Assembly (NCBI GenBank): GCA_014377705.1
Contig: JACMPC010000135.1
Location: 1-64,000 of the forward strand
Length of the DNA: 64,000 nt
Direction of reading: 5' to 3'
Source of the DNA: Dermatophilaceae bacterium
GTDB taxonomy: Bacteria; Actinomycetota; Actinomycetes; Actinomycetales; Dermatophilaceae
The position numbers and the translations under genes are program-made. The notes under the pieces are model-generated. The model made no database searches. It was not told where the DNA came from and was given only the letters and a program-made list of their open reading frames with translations. Positions 30,621-36,895 of this stretch are shown in pieces; position 1 is the stretch's first letter; each line of letters starts with the position of its first letter.

Positions 30621-31052
30621 ATGCCTGGAGACACCTTGGCCCCGCCCCGCAAGTCACCTGCCCTGCCGCCCGGGGTGGCGCACTCGCGTCGGGCCGCCCT
30701 GCTGATGCTGACCGGGCTCATCGCCGCGGGATCCCCGCTGCCATACAGCGCGGCGGCCCTGATCCCCCTGGCCTGGGCGGGGTTCGAGTCAGTTCTCGCG
30801 ATCCGGGCCAGGTCTGCGGGCGGGGCGCCGGCTCGCAGCGTCGCGTCCAGCGTGGTCGGTCTTGTCCTGGTGTGCCTGCTCGCCGCGATGGTGCTGTTGC
30901 CCTATGCCTTCTACGGCACGGTGAAAACCCTTCAGGACTGCACCCAGGGGGCGAATACCGCGGTGGCCGCGGCGGACTGCAACTCTCGCTATGGCAGTCT
31001 CGAGTCGATCGTCGGCGGATTTCTCAGGTTCGGGCAGCGCGCAGGTGGCTGA
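30621..31052 (+). CDS. Small actinobacterial membrane protein, unknown function
   Basis: A 143-residue protein with two to three hydrophobic segments (about 24-42, 45-60 and 76-100) and a C-terminal extracytoplasmic stretch LQDCTQGANTAVAAADCNSR holding two cysteines likely to pair. I recognise this 'C..GANT..A...C' tail from short hypothetical proteins of Micrococcales but know no function. It is divergent from purN (46 bp) and its last 29 bases overlap the 3' end of the DUF6350 gene on the other strand. The codon pattern agrees with a real gene, but it is less certain than its neighbours. Confidence 0.6.
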   Translation: MPGDTLAPPRKSPALPPGVAHSRRAALLMLTGLIAAGSPLPYSAAALIPLAWAGFESVLAIRARSAGGAPARSVASSVVGLVLVCLLAAMVLLPYAFYGTVKTLQDCTQGANTAVAAADCNSRYGSLESIVGGFLRFGQRAGG

Positions 31053-32286
31053 GGCCGACAACGACCGCCGCTCCGAGCAGTAGCTCCGCAAGCACCGCCG
31101 CCCCGAACAGCAACGACGGCGCGCCCACCCCGCTGAGCCGTGCGGCACCCAGCGAACCGCCGGCCAGGACGCTGGCCAAGGTGAGGAGCAGCGAGGCAAC
31201 CGCGCACGCCGCACCTGCCACCGTTGCCTTCACCCGCCAGGACGAGAGCCGGGCCACGGCACGAAGGGCCCGCCAACCGACCAGTGACCCGGCCGCAACC
31301 GGAACCAGGACGCTGAACCACAGACCGGCCGGTAGCTGACCGGGGGCCGGCACGGCGCCCAGCCCGGGGATGAGCGGCAGCAGGCCGGGGTTGGACTGTG
31401 ACCAGGTGATGGCGGTCCCCTCACCGAGGCCGAAGCCCGGACCCGCCATCCACGAGGCGGCCCAGAGCGCGACGTTCGGCAGGACCATCAGCTGGCCGAG
31501 GCTGATCACGACGACTCCGACCGGATCGGGCCCGAGTGCGTCATACAGCCTGCTGATCCGGCCCAGGTGCGTCACGACCATCACCAGAGTCAATGCCGCC
31601 CCGGCACCGAAGACCGCGAAGGCGCCCCACAGCCCCGGACGGACGGCCCGGCGCAGATGGATGGGCACCCGGTTCTTCAGCACCGTGGCGAGGCCGGGCG
31701 CCACCGCACCGACCTGGCCCCGAAACTCCATCGTGAGGGCGATCAGGACTGAGACCACGCCCACCACGGCCGTCCCCGCGACAGCACCCCCCAGCGAGGC
31801 GCTGAGGGGGTCGCCGGCCGTGGCGAGGGTCACGACCAGTCCCATGGCGGCGTACGCGAAGACGAAGGCGACGCCTGCGTCAGCGACGTCACGACGCAGG
31901 CCTCCACACTTCTGCAACCTGCTGGGACGACCATCATCGAGCTGCATGAGCATCTGGCGGGCCGCGACAGTAGCCACGAGGACTGATAGGGCCGCGAGCA
32001 GCAGGGGCGTCAGCGAGATGGTGGCGGACCCGGCGCTCAGCTGTGCGCCGTTGGCCAGCAGCCAGACGCAGGAACCCACCGAGAGTGCCTGGGTCCAGCT
32101 GACGGTGCTCTTCGGGCTGGCGACCCAGGCGAGCAGCACGGGCAGCACGATGACGAGCAACGACACCAGCGCGGCCGAGACACCCGACATCGCCGCGCTC
32201 AACCGGAGAGGGCCACCTACCATCGCCTCCGAGGATGACGGGGGGGAGGTGACATTGAGGTTGCGCACGCGATCGAAGAGGCTCAT
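31024..32286 (-). CDS. DUF6350 family multi-spanning membrane protein
   Basis: A ~420-residue protein with about ten hydrophobic segments and almost no soluble domains. The GSCVWLLANGAQLSAGSATI segment and the WSQSNPGLLPLIPGLGAVPA loop fit DUF6350, a membrane family that in Actinobacteria usually sits next to purN/purH or sucC/sucD, as here. ATG 32286 (MSLFDRVRN) is chosen; a GTG ten codons earlier is possible. The function is not known. Confidence 0.82.
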   Translation of the reverse strand: MSLFDRVRNLNVTSPPSSSEAMVGGPLRLSAAMSGVSAALVSLLVIVLPVLLAWVASPKSTVSWTQALSVGSCVWLLANGAQLSAGSATISLTPLLLAALSVLVATVAARQMLMQLDDGRPSRLQKCGGLRRDVADAGVAFVFAYAAMGLVVTLATAGDPLSASLGGAVAGTAVVGVVSVLIALTMEFRGQVGAVAPGLATVLKNRVPIHLRRAVRPGLWGAFAVFGAGAALTLVMVVTHLGRISRLYDALGPDPVGVVVISLGQLMVLPNVALWAASWMAGPGFGLGEGTAITWSQSNPGLLPLIPGLGAVPAPGQLPAGLWFSVLVPVAAGSLVGWRALRAVARLSSWRVKATVAGAACAVASLLLTLASVLAGGSLGAARLSGVGAPSLLFGAAVLAELLLGAAVVVGLSHLRAART

Positions 32287-32375
32287 CAGGAGTCTATGGT
32301 CGCTGCTGACGGCCACAACCCCACACGGGGCGCGCCGCGCGGGCCCAGATTACCCCTGCCTGGGAGATGTCCAGG

Positions 32376-35267
32376 TCAGAGCACCTGGGCGAATGTGCCC
32401 CAGCCAACACCGATCTTTGTCACGGCTCCGGCAAAACCACCCAGGCCATTGCCGCGGTACAGGTACAGCTCGCCAGTGGGCTTCACCGCCACCAGATCGG
32501 TCTTGCCATCACCGCTGAAGTCGCCCGGGGAGAACACCCTGGAGAACGTGCCCCACCCGCTACCGATCTTCATCCCTACCCCGGCAAGACCACCCAGACC
32601 ACTGCCCCGATACAGGTACAGGTCGCCGTTGGTCATGGCCGCCACCAGGTCAGCCTTGCCATCACCACTGAAGTCACGGGGAGAGAACACCTTCGTGAAC
32701 ACCCCCCGGACAACACCAGTCTGTGTCCCGGCTCCGGCAAAGCCACCCAGACCATTGCCCCGGTACAGGTACAGCTCGCCGCCGGGCTTCACGGCCACCA
32801 GGTCAGCCTTGCCATCACCACTGAAGTCGCCCGGGGAGAACACCCTGGAGAACATGCTCCACCCGCTACCGATCTTCACCCCTGCCCCGGCAAAACCACC
32901 CAGACCGTTGCCCCGGTACAGGTACAGCTCGCCGTGCGGCTTGACCGCCGCCACGTCGGCCCTGCCATCACCACTGAAGTCGCCAGGAGCGAACACCTTC
33001 GAGAACATGTTCCACCCTGCACCGATCTTCACCCCTGCCCCGGCAAAACCACCCAGACCACTGCCCCGGTAGAGGTACAGGTCGCCATTGGTCCTGGCCG
33101 CCAGCAGGTCGATCTTGCCGTCACCGCTGAAGTCCAACGGCGACGTGGTCACCGCAAGGTCGTCGAGAACGAACGAGGTGGCCGCCGACGCGTCCTCGTC
33201 GCCGGAGAAGGACAGCGAGATCGTCTGGCCGGCATACGCCGACAGGTTCACCGTCTTGAGCTGGTACCTGCCTGACGCGTTGAGGTTGGACAGGGTCTGC
33301 AGCATGGTCGAGCCCGCCCGGACCGTCAACGTGTCGAACGCCTGGTCGTTCGGGGACTCGGACGTTCCGATGAGCACGTAGTACGACAGGATTGCTCGCC
33401 TGCCCGCCGGTATTGTCACCAGCTGCGAGATCGAGTCGTGGGACTCCGCGCCGGTTCCGCACAACCAGGCGTCCCAGGCCCCGGAATGGGCGGCGCCCGA
33501 TCCTGGCCTGTTGATGATGGGAATCCCGCCAGAAGGAGTCGCGGACCAGAGGGTGTTGCCCGACTCGAATCCAGGGTTGCGCAGCAGGTTGTTGCCCAGC
33601 GGGGGTGGCGTGGTCATGCCACAGGTCGCCGCTCCGGGCGGCACTGCGATCGCCGAGAAAGAGGCCGCGATGCCCACGCACTCGGCCGACCCGGCGCCGT
33701 ACAGGTCCTTGGCGGACTGGATGGCTCCCTCCCGGGCTGCGGCGTAGGTGCTGCTCGAGGTGAGGTACGTCGTCAGCGTCCGATACCAGATCCGGGCGGC
33801 CTTGTCCCGGCCGACCGGGGTCACCGTCGAGGAGTTACACGTCGGGCTGTTGTAGGAGACACCGTTGAGGACCTTGGCCCCCGACCCCTCGGAGGCCAGG
33901 TAGAACCAGTGGTTCAACGGCCCTGCCGAGAGGTGCACGTCCATGCCGCCCAAGGTGGGAGACCAGCAGTCCGGCGAGACATTGTCGCGGGAGGGCCGGT
34001 CCAGGTAGCGCAGCGGCGTCCCGTCGCCATTGAGGTTGATCAGCTCGCCGATGAGGTAGTCCGGGGTGTCGACGGCGTTTGCCGCGTACCACTCCACGGA
34101 CGTGCCGAAGATGTCCGAGGTCGCCTCGTCCAGGCCCCCGGCCTCACCCACCCCGACCAGCGCGGCGGTGTTCTCGGTGACGCCATGAGTCATCTCATGG
34201 CCTGCCACGTCGAGCTCGACGACGGGGTGGGCGTTGCCCGCCCCGTCGCCGTAGGTCATCTGGGTGCCATCCCAGAACGCGTTGAGGTAGCCGTTGCCGT
34301 AGTGGACTCGTGAACGTGCGCCGACCCCGTTGTTCCGGATGCCGTTGCGGCCGAGGACGTTTTTGAAATAGTTGAAGGTCTTCCCCGCGCCATAGTGGGC
34401 ATCGACCCCGGCCGAGGCCCGATCGGTGACCGCGCCATTGCCCCAGGCGTTGTCAGCGTCGGTGAAGGTTGTTCCCGGAACATTGAAGATATCGCCGCCC
34501 AAGCCGTTTCCGAGGCCGTTGAGATCCGTGGTGTAGTTGCCCACTGCGTTCCTCATCGAGTAGTGGCCGGGGGTACCAGTGGTGTCGATGGGCACCGTAC
34601 CCACGTAGATGCCGTTACCGGTGCCGTTCACGATCTCGTCCCAGGACGACATCGTGGCACCAGTGCCGGCATCGACAATGGTGTGCACCCGGCTGGGCGT
34701 CTGGTCGGCACGCACACCGGTGGTGAGCACGTCATAGGCCAGCCTCGGCTTCGCCTTGCCGGACCCGCCCGGGGAGTAGACGACCAGCTCACCCTTGGTC
34801 GCCGCAGCACCCTGCTGCATCAACGAAGCCTTCCGGCCACCCGCAGCCCGGGCCGCCGACAGGCTGAGCTTCGGGGTGGTCGAGGCCACCACCACCTCAG
34901 GGGAGCCGTTCCAGCTGACTGCCTTGATCTTGCCGGACCTGACCCGGTGGCTCACCAAGTCGCCACCGACGACCCGCAACCCGCGATAGGTCCGGTCGTA
35001 CCGCACATTGGTCGTGCCGTCAGGATCGGTGATGACATCCCTGACCACGAGGTCCTCAGCGCCGTCCAGGCCCAGGGCCCGCTCGGTGGAGCCAGCGCGG
35101 GACTGCTCGACAGCAATCCTGCCAGCCCTACCAGAGGGCGACGACGCAGAGGAAGACGGCGTCGAAGTCGGCGTCGGGGTCGGCGCGCCATAGGCCGTCA
35201 CAGACCCGCTCGCCATGACCACGGCAAGAAGAACCCCGGATGCCACGCTGAGTCTCAGACAACGCAA
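32376..35267 (-). CDS. Secreted M4 (thermolysin-type) metalloprotease with C-terminal FG-GAP repeats
   Basis: A ~963-residue secreted zinc protease. A signal peptide (1-28) and Ser/Thr/Pro-rich linker precede an FTP/PepSY-type propeptide (about 45-210). The M4 catalytic domain holds HEMTH (357-361), GGLDEATSD (Glu381 as third zinc ligand) and the transition-state His453 in LNHWFY. Then come a jelly-roll-like region starting NLLRNPGFESG (about 556-705) and five ~51-residue FG-GAP/VCBS-like repeats (DFSGDGKxDLxA). The TTG at 35267 has AAGGAG eight bases upstream; the ATG at 35327 coincides with the likely -10 box, so it is rejected. It interrupts an otherwise conserved metabolic block. Confidence 0.9.
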   Translation of the reverse strand: MRCLRLSVASGVLLAVVMASGSVTAYGAPTPTPTSTPSSSASSPSGRAGRIAVEQSRAGSTERALGLDGAEDLVVRDVITDPDGTTNVRYDRTYRGLRVVGGDLVSHRVRSGKIKAVSWNGSPEVVVASTTPKLSLSAARAAGGRKASLMQQGAAATKGELVVYSPGGSGKAKPRLAYDVLTTGVRADQTPSRVHTIVDAGTGATMSSWDEIVNGTGNGIYVGTVPIDTTGTPGHYSMRNAVGNYTTDLNGLGNGLGGDIFNVPGTTFTDADNAWGNGAVTDRASAGVDAHYGAGKTFNYFKNVLGRNGIRNNGVGARSRVHYGNGYLNAFWDGTQMTYGDGAGNAHPVVELDVAGHEMTHGVTENTAALVGVGEAGGLDEATSDIFGTSVEWYAANAVDTPDYLIGELINLNGDGTPLRYLDRPSRDNVSPDCWSPTLGGMDVHLSAGPLNHWFYLASEGSGAKVLNGVSYNSPTCNSSTVTPVGRDKAARIWYRTLTTYLTSSSTYAAAREGAIQSAKDLYGAGSAECVGIAASFSAIAVPPGAATCGMTTPPPLGNNLLRNPGFESGNTLWSATPSGGIPIINRPGSGAAHSGAWDAWLCGTGAESHDSISQLVTIPAGRRAILSYYVLIGTSESPNDQAFDTLTVRAGSTMLQTLSNLNASGRYQLKTVNLSAYAGQTISLSFSGDEDASAATSFVLDDLAVTTSPLDFSGDGKIDLLAARTNGDLYLYRGSGLGGFAGAGVKIGAGWNMFSKVFAPGDFSGDGRADVAAVKPHGELYLYRGNGLGGFAGAGVKIGSGWSMFSRVFSPGDFSGDGKADLVAVKPGGELYLYRGNGLGGFAGAGTQTGVVRGVFTKVFSPRDFSGDGKADLVAAMTNGDLYLYRGSGLGGLAGVGMKIGSGWGTFSRVFSPGDFSGDGKTDLVAVKPTGELYLYRGNGLGGFAGAVTKIGVGWGTFAQVL
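32379..33137. repeat. Five tandem ~153-bp coding repeats (FG-GAP blades)
   Basis: The 3' end of the metalloprotease gene is five tandem units of about 153 bp, each encoding DFSGDG(K/R)xDLxA followed by GDLYLYRG or GELYLYRG, GLGGFAG and a GW-F-VF spacer. Units differ by only a few residues, so recombination between them is likely. The Asp-rich loop of each unit resembles a calcium-binding FG-GAP loop. Confidence 0.85.
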
Positions 35268-35325
35268 GGGCGCATCTCCTTCGGTGGGGCCGGCGCCTGG
35301 CGCTCGCCAGCGTGATGGCACCGTC

Positions 35326-35370
35326 ATTGTGATGAGCGTTTCGGGTGCTGTCAAAATGACTTGTTGACAG
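35326..35370. promoter_or_regulatory. Divergent promoters with back-to-back TTGACA boxes
   Basis: Toward the protease (minus strand): TTGACA at 35354-35349, a 17-base spacer, then CACAAT at 35331-35326. Toward the lipoprotein (plus strand): TTGACA at 35364-35369, with no clear -10. The arms CTGTCA (35348-35353) and TGACAG (35365-35370) form an inverted repeat with an 11-base centre. One regulator could control both genes. Confidence 0.6.
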
Positions 35371-35403
35371 GAGTGTCCCCGCCCATGAGTGCAGGATGGA
35401 CTA

Positions 35404-35865
35404 ATGCGATCTCCCGCCCTCGCCCCGTTCTGCCTGGCCGTCGCGGTGGCCACGACCGCCTGCGGCTCCCCGAAGGATTCGCCCAGTATGTCCCAGCCCG
35501 CGGTCTTCCCGCTGACGATCACGCGGATCGGTGGGGTCGCCGGTTTTCATGACGTTCTGGTCGTCAACGGGGAGGGACTTGTGTCGGTCACCCAGAAGGG
35601 CAGGACACGATGGCAGTGCAGGCTCACGCCGGTGGCTGCCAGGCGGGTGGCCACGGCCACCTCCGCCCTGCCGTGGCCTCGACTCACGGCTAGCAGCACC
35701 AGCGCCGGCTTCTCCGATGATCTGGTGACCTTGGTTCAGTCACCCGCGGGCGGTCCGGTCAGGCTGGAGGACCCGCAAACCGGTGCTGCGGGCACGATCT
35801 TCAACGAGCTGATCAACGATCTGCGCGGCGGCTGGTCGGCCTCTGGCATGTGCAGGCCGGTCTGA
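35404..35865 (+). CDS. Small lipoprotein, possible emfourin-like M4 protease inhibitor
   Basis: A 153-residue exported protein. The signal ends at Cys20 (ATTAC), a slightly atypical lipobox. The mature domain starts LTITRIGGVAGFHDVLVV and continues with beta-strand-like segments and LTPVAARRVATATSALPW. The 'R-x-GG-x-AG' beginning and the size resemble emfourin-type inhibitors of M4 peptidases, often encoded beside their target. Here the M4 protease gene is immediately divergent (136 bp between starts). This relation is inference from pattern and context; the alternative is an unrelated hypothetical lipoprotein. AGGA lies nine bases before the ATG. Confidence 0.6.
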   Translation: MRSPALAPFCLAVAVATTACGSPKDSPSMSQPAVFPLTITRIGGVAGFHDVLVVNGEGLVSVTQKGRTRWQCRLTPVAARRVATATSALPWPRLTASSTSAGFSDDLVTLVQSPAGGPVRLEDPQTGAAGTIFNELINDLRGGWSASGMCRPV

Positions 35866-35947
35866 CTGCGAGGATGCCCGCCGTCGGAGCAGGTGGAATC
35901 GGGTGCAAAGCCAAGGGTCTTGGGTCGGGGTCAATGCCGGGACAGCG

Positions 35948-35986
35948 CGTTGGGCCGGTCACCTCGACGAGGTGACCGGCCCAACG
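35948..35986. terminator. Strong hairpin terminator after sucD
   Basis: GTTGGGCCGGTCACCTC (35949-35965) and its exact reverse complement (35969-35985) form a perfect 17-bp stem, 18 with the flanking C-G pair, closing a 3-base loop. It begins 19 bp after the sucD stop. No U-run follows, as is common in GC-rich genomes. It may also end transcription from the opposite lipoprotein gene. Confidence 0.8.
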
Positions 35987-36004
35987 AGCCGTCTCACGAC
36001 AGGA

Positions 36005-36895
36005 TCAGACCAGCTTCTTCATGACCTCACGCATCAGCTCCGCGGTCGCGGACGGCGTCTTGCCGACCTTGACCCCGGCGGCCTCGAGGGCCTCCTGCTT
36101 GGCAGCAGCGGTGCCGGACGAACCGGACACGATGGCGCCCGCGTGACCCATGGTCTTGCCCTCAGGGGCGGTGAAGCCGGCCACGTAGCCGACAACCGGC
36201 TTGGTGACGTGCTCCTTGATGTAGGCCGCTGCCCGCTCCTCGGCGTCCCCGCCGATCTCACCGATCATGACGATCGCATCGGTGTCGGGGTCGTTCTGGA
36301 ATGCCTCGAGGCAGTCGATGTGGGTGGTCCCGATGATCGGGTCCCCGCCGATGCCCACAGCGGTTGAGAATCCGAAGTCTCGCAGCTCATAGATCATCTG
36401 GTAGGTCAGAGTGCCCGACTTGGAGACGAGCCCGATGCGTCCGGCGCCAGCGATCGTCGATGGGATGATTCCCGCGTTGGATGCGCCGGGGCTGATGATC
36501 CCGGGGCAGTTGGGGCCAATGATGCGCGTCCCGCCGGACTGCTTCGCGTAGGTCCAGAACTCGGCGCTGTCCTTGACTGCGACGCCCTCGGTGATGACGA
36601 CGGCAAGCGGGATCTTGGCGTCGATGGCCTCCATCACAGCGGCCTTGGTGAACTTGGCCGGGACGAAGACGACGGTCACGTCGGCACCGGTGGCCTCGAC
36701 AGCCTCAGCCACCGAACCGAAGACCGGTATGGAGACCCCCGAGTCGAACTCGACTTTCTGTCCGCCCTTGCCGGGAGTCACGCCACCGACGATATTGGTG
36801 CCCGAGGCCAGCATGAGCTGGGTGTGCTTCTGGCCCTCGGAGCCGGTCATGCCCTGCACGATGACCTTGGAGCTTGCGGTAAGGAAAATAGCCAT
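36005..36895 (-). CDS. sucD: Succinyl-CoA synthetase, alpha subunit
   Basis: A 296-residue subunit carrying the CoA site and the phosphorylated histidine. Landmarks are [42 protein letters not shown], and [13 protein letters not shown] with the active His. With SucC it interconverts succinyl-CoA and succinate with nucleotide phosphorylation. The start is 14 bp after the sucC stop, so the two are one operon, followed by a strong hairpin. Confidence 0.97.

Follow-up and report, generated by a model that had tools for sequence, protein, structure and literature searches.

Emfourin (M4in; PF20242) of Serratia proteamaculans (PDB 6zyg) is an inhibitor of the intracellular M4 metalloprotease protealysin, is encoded in the same operon, and binds its target 1:1 at the active-site region (PMC9505478). 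The immunity proteins PA0261 and Tpi1, belonging to the type VI effectors VgrG2b and Tpe1, are located in the envelope, some of them as lipoproteins, and neutralise by complex formation the thermolysin-like gluzincin encoded adjacent to them (PMC6899460). For actinobacteria, an exported inhibitor of a secreted metalloprotease has also been described (PMC4757070). Here we analyse a locus of a soil Dermatophilaceae bacterium, within a 64,000-nucleotide stretch of contig JACMPC010000135.1 (hereafter the window, meaning this whole stretch), in which a small lipoprotein gene and the gene of a secreted M4 protease diverge from each other. An earlier note on this DNA had described such a pair, and both genes were found in place, with domains and translations in agreement. 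We read the lipoprotein as an emfourin-superfamily protein that is exported and lipid-anchored, and that probably inhibits the neighbouring secreted M4, and perhaps the M4s of neighbours, at the cell surface, and we put the probability of this reading at about two in three.

Like emfourin, the window protein has a predicted beta-beta-alpha-beta-beta-alpha order, an R-x-GG-x-x-G loop motif, profile-profile homology to the family and an adjacent M4 gene. Unlike emfourin, it begins with a predicted lipoprotein signal and a linker, has a beta-hairpin insertion, a further strand at the C-terminus and a conserved pair of cysteines, lies on the strand opposite its M4, and has as its partner a secreted pre-pro M4 that is not protealysin-like. 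PA0261 and Tpi1 differ from it in being parts of Gram-negative effector-immunity systems, in which the toxin is delivered by the type VI system rather than by a signal peptide, and no evidence of a sequence relation to them was found here. The described actinobacterial inhibitor is soluble and dimeric, and is without a lipid anchor (PMC4757070).

The relationship to emfourin emerges from comparison of family profiles. Homologues of the lipoprotein were sought in 100 genomes of the same family, which we take to be Dermatophilaceae; 34 were positive by single sequence and 30 by profile. Their alignment (A1) was compared with an alignment of 21 canonical emfourins of the same family (A2), collected with the Pfam model PF20242; the source loci of A2 pass this model, and the A2 profile matches the protealysin-associated protein PDB 6zyg. 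Profile-profile alignment of A1 with A2 by hhalign gave 93.3% (E 2.7e-7, score 42.9, 89 columns), as against a maximum of 1.34% and scores of 16 or less in 200 column shuffles, and a score of 10.5 in a reversed control. With distant homologues from other actinomycete families added, the value against A2 was 97.4% (E 1.3e-11), and with the distant homologues alone 98.5%, the matches spanning 88–89 columns. Emfourin was the best Pfam family in all ten distant homologues scanned, four of which pass its gathering score of 27 bits (27.8–37.8 bits), and the D-x-F-x-Y motif of emfourins is seen in several of them. The resemblance to emfourin suggested in the earlier note is thus borne out, by these values, by the distant members past the cut-off and by the same predicted core; the profile check that it had proposed finds the similarity by way of the family profile. 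Scans of the genome contigs with the single lipoprotein sequence, and with its alignment, returned nothing usable. The window lipoprotein itself does not reach the PF20242 gathering score, and a tree of the core columns sets the canonical emfourins apart as a clade of their own (support 0.976). On the profile comparisons, the lipoprotein is placed as an exported, divergent emfourin relative, which has homology to the family but falls outside it by the Pfam cut-off. Related emfourin-like domains, secreted or in lipoproteins, also occur in actinomycetes with large genomes of 7–10 Mb (loci L111-L122), mostly with no M4 nearby.

Predicted structures point in the same direction. The AlphaFold2 model built on A1 (pLDDT 95, pTM 0.87) has strands at 4-10, 15-21, 26-30 and 37-41, a helix at 43-55, strands at 74-80 and 83-87, a helix at 91-107 and a strand at 117-119, and the model of the canonical emfourin of the same genome (pLDDT 86) has strands at 2-8 and 15-21, a helix at 27-42, strands at 56-63 and 66-73 and a helix at 82-91. 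By DSSP, on which alone the two models were compared, the order of elements is E-E-(E-E)-H-E-E-H-(E) in the lipoprotein and E-E-H-E-E-H in emfourin, so that the lipoprotein domain can be read as the emfourin core enlarged by a beta-hairpin behind strand 2 and by a strand at the C-terminus; it also has the two conserved cysteines, C39 and C117 in domain numbering, which could form a disulphide. In both models, the conserved R-x-GG motif sits in a loop between strands. A Foldseek search of the lipoprotein model against the PDB gave nothing significant, with 6zyg outside the top 50; this result carries no weight, because the model of a bona fide emfourin, used as a control, likewise lacked 6zyg in its top 50. 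The best PDB matches of one emfourin model (m9e20998d2011, L031:1106-1396) were the SSI-family inhibitors sermetstatin and SSTI, at TM 0.40-0.45 and E ~0.17, a resemblance below significance.

The signal peptide region of the lipoprotein ends in VATTAC followed by GS, and the protein is predicted to be lipidated, with Cys20 as its mature N-terminal residue. The sequence TRIGGVAGF, which had been taken as the mature start, occupies residues 40-48, behind a linker, and that part of the earlier description falls. In A1, positions with R, G, G, A, G and Cys are invariant, and most of them fall in the first beta turn, R-x-GG-[IVF]-A-G; in the motif region R, GG and A are invariant and G and D nearly so, and in A2 the pattern R-x-GG-x-x-G is invariant. 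Two genomes of the same genus hold homologues of the lipoprotein, 70% and 59% identical in amino acids, and relatives in the genus have the lipobox MTAC. Within the genus dN/dS is ~0.33-0.5, similar to that of the M4, and judged by this ratio the lipoprotein is under purifying selection.

The protease encoded next to it is, by its domains, a secreted thermolysin-type peptidase, with an FTP propeptide domain, Peptidase_M4 (1.1e-46), Peptidase_M4_C (4e-40) and five FG-GAP repeats (FG-GAP_3) found by Pfam, as well as a weak MAM-like stretch. Its precursor carries a signal peptide, and the translation has an intact HEMTH...E, in which the motifs HEMTH and GGLDEATSDIFG are read. Conservation of a membrane-anchored protein next to an exported protease would also be expected of a foldase, i.e., a chaperone or maturation factor that reuses the emfourin fold and assists folding or maturation of the M4 precursor at the membrane; we regard this as improbable, since the FTP motif already present in the M4 propeptide belongs to the usual intramolecular chaperone, homologous M4s lacking the lipoprotein are numerous, and the family relationship of the lipoprotein is to an inhibitor.

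The linkage between lipoprotein and secreted M4 genes is conserved in several genomic settings, with either orientation of the genes, and beyond a single family. By coordinates, a secreted-type M4 domain is no more than 3 kb away from 21 of the 31 lipoprotein genes of the 100 family genomes, and one further linked lipoprotein, found by tblastn in genome G005, brings this to 22/31; a survey of co-occurrence in related genomes, as the earlier note had advised, therefore favours the pairing. In the assembly, the M4 of G005 (L062:2281-3918), which lies beside a lipoprotein of the same genus, is without ~90 residues of the catalytic domain. At the level of genomes, co-occurrence of lipoprotein and M4 has a Fisher p of 1.4e-5, uncorrected for relatedness. 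Outside the family, five genomes (G114, G423, G440, G465 and G557) from three families (f16, f27 and f53) have an adjacent M4, the pairs of f27 being convergent and those of the other two families divergent. In the reverse test, in which 79 M4 loci were fetched with the M4 sequence alone, the lipoprotein was found within ~1.7 kb of the M4 in 33, convergent every time and with Kribbella contributing a large share, and in 0 of the last 28 loci fetched, mostly from Streptomyces. Among the 33 named relatives from these loci, the lipobox pattern is present in 31 and the two cysteines in 32.

One reading would give the lipoprotein an unrelated envelope function, with proximity to the M4 being inherited synteny, and a single syntenic site, between sucC and mcmB, does hold the pair in part of the family. 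Other family pairs are located elsewhere, however, and the several contexts, orientations and families in which the pair occurs lead us to reject plain inherited synteny as a full explanation; moreover, this reading would make a coincidence of the agreement in profile and topology with an M4 inhibitor, and we consider it very improbable.

In most Dermatophilaceae loci M4 and lipoprotein genes are directly adjacent, with gaps of ~24-207 bp. In Luteipulveratus (L140:6539-7963) and Kribbella catacumbae (L185:6535-7953) a gene for a secreted M28 aminopeptidase lies between them, and the C-terminal domain of these M28 proteins resembles that of the M4. The lipoprotein could be an emfourin-type inhibitor whose main target is a foreign protease (of a competitor, predator or host) or a secreted peptidase other than the M4, such as the Kribbella M28, with the M4 linkage reflecting a shared protease locus. 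In favour of this are the interposed M28 genes, and the orphan lipoproteins kept where the genome has no typical secreted M4, those of G030 and G043 at the sucC-mcmB site. The short gaps of most loci leave no room for an M28 gene, however, and the known target of emfourin is an M4 (PMC9505478), so that we think such a main target unlikely.

Inhibition of the adjacent secreted M4 is favoured as the most likely function because of the homology to emfourin, and its effect would be local to the surface because the lipoprotein is exported and probably lipid-anchored. Several observations weigh against this reading. As a single sequence the window lipoprotein matches no entry of Pfam or NCBIfam and no PDB sequence, and just one of the 24 members of A1 scanned against Pfam gave an Emfourin match, a weak one (E 0.028). 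Its lipobox is atypical, with T at position -3. In seven other family genomes the lipoprotein is present but no typical secreted M4, and in 18 such an M4 is present but not the lipoprotein. Finally, a second secreted M4 of the same genome (contig C193; L104:6951-10229, minus strand), which has FG-GAP repeats and is 79% identical to the window catalytic region, has no lipoprotein gene within several kb on either side. These unpaired genes may point to protection against foreign proteases, to cross-protection or to another role.

The same genome also encodes, on contig C76, a protealysin-like M4 (363 aa) in which no signal peptide is apparent, and a 96-aa emfourin directly downstream on the same strand; the window lipoprotein is consequently not the sole emfourin relative of its genome, as might have been supposed. 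The two pairs are alike in that an emfourin-type protein stands beside an M4 protease, and unlike in that the window pair is exported, whereas that of C76 is presumably cytoplasmic. Because both are present in one genome, the inside and the outside of the cell would each have a pair of their own.

Whereas the gene pair, the homology, the core shared in prediction, the conserved linkage and the lipobox of most relatives were observed here, we infer that the lipoprotein binds and inhibits the M4 by way of a loop, is lipidated in this organism, and serves in self-protection. The exported protein would receive its lipid at Cys20, and the inhibitory domain would stand clear of the membrane on a linker of ~15-20 residues. 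The loop between beta1 and beta2, R-x-G-G-[I/V/F]-A-G, conserved as it is, is suspected to be the inhibitory element, and would enter the active-site cleft of the protease. The S1' pocket of M4 enzymes prefers a hydrophobic residue, as in the specificity of thermolysin, and the hydrophobic residue of the loop may fill this pocket. Protease would be kept in check where it emerges at the membrane or comes back to it, and would remain active once it had diffused away.

The coordinates of the features are collected in the table below. For the protease, TTG 35267 is the likely translation start rather than ATG 35327, because GAAGGAG, a Shine-Dalgarno sequence, stands just upstream of it and the predicted promoter would overlap ATG 35327. 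This promoter, a sigma-70-like TTGACA-17-CACAAT at 35354-35326 on the minus strand, is directed at the protease, and was the one match in a scan of the intergenic region, against 0.1 expected in shuffles. The control region that the two genes had been said to share does measure the length given for it, but is particular to this lineage: in 20 of 21 positioned family loci the genes are tail to tail, the window pair being the sole exception, and because of this arrangement in relatives a shared divergent promoter is rejected as the conserved trait. In the window (31024-36895) the pair lies between a membrane-protein gene (31024-32316), presumably of DUF6350, and sucD. Relatives often carry it in the sucC-mcmB interval, M4 and lipoprotein having changed places, which would be a rearrangement or an assembly effect.

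Features of the lipoprotein-M4 locus, in window coordinates
Feature	Position	Strand	Remarks
Lipoprotein gene	35404..35865	+	ATG 35404, 153 aa; emfourin-like core predicted at ~residues 34-153
Beta1-loop-beta2 motif codons	35515..35556	+	TITRIGGVAGFHDV; R-x-GG-[hydrophobic]-A-G, common to lipoproteins and emfourins
Secreted M4 metalloprotease gene	32376..35267	-	963 aa from the likely start TTG 35267; stop at 32376
153-bp tandem repeats	32428..33134	-	Tandem Repeats Finder; code for C-terminal FG-GAP repeats of the protease
Divergent intergenic region	35268..35403	.	136 bp between M4 start TTG 35267 and lipoprotein ATG 35404

To our knowledge, little is understood, beyond propeptides, of how exporters of broad-specificity thermolysin-type proteases spare their own surface proteins. 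The lipoprotein offers a concrete candidate for such protection of the producer surface, with many natural pairs available in the cultured genera Kribbella, Terrabacter, Intrasporangium and Phycicoccus. It would also add to the emfourin family, with its intracellular operon partners, a form that is exported and probably lipid-anchored, and that mostly escapes the present Pfam and NCBIfam profiles. More tentatively, and with somewhat less confidence than doubt, we suggest that a new and widespread class of membrane-anchored emfourins may provide surface immunity to secreted M4s in Actinomycetes, in parallel to the intracellular protealysin-emfourin pairs of the same cell, by means of a substrate-mimicking GG-[hydrophobic]-A-G loop, and that its orphan members may guard their hosts against the M4s of neighbours.

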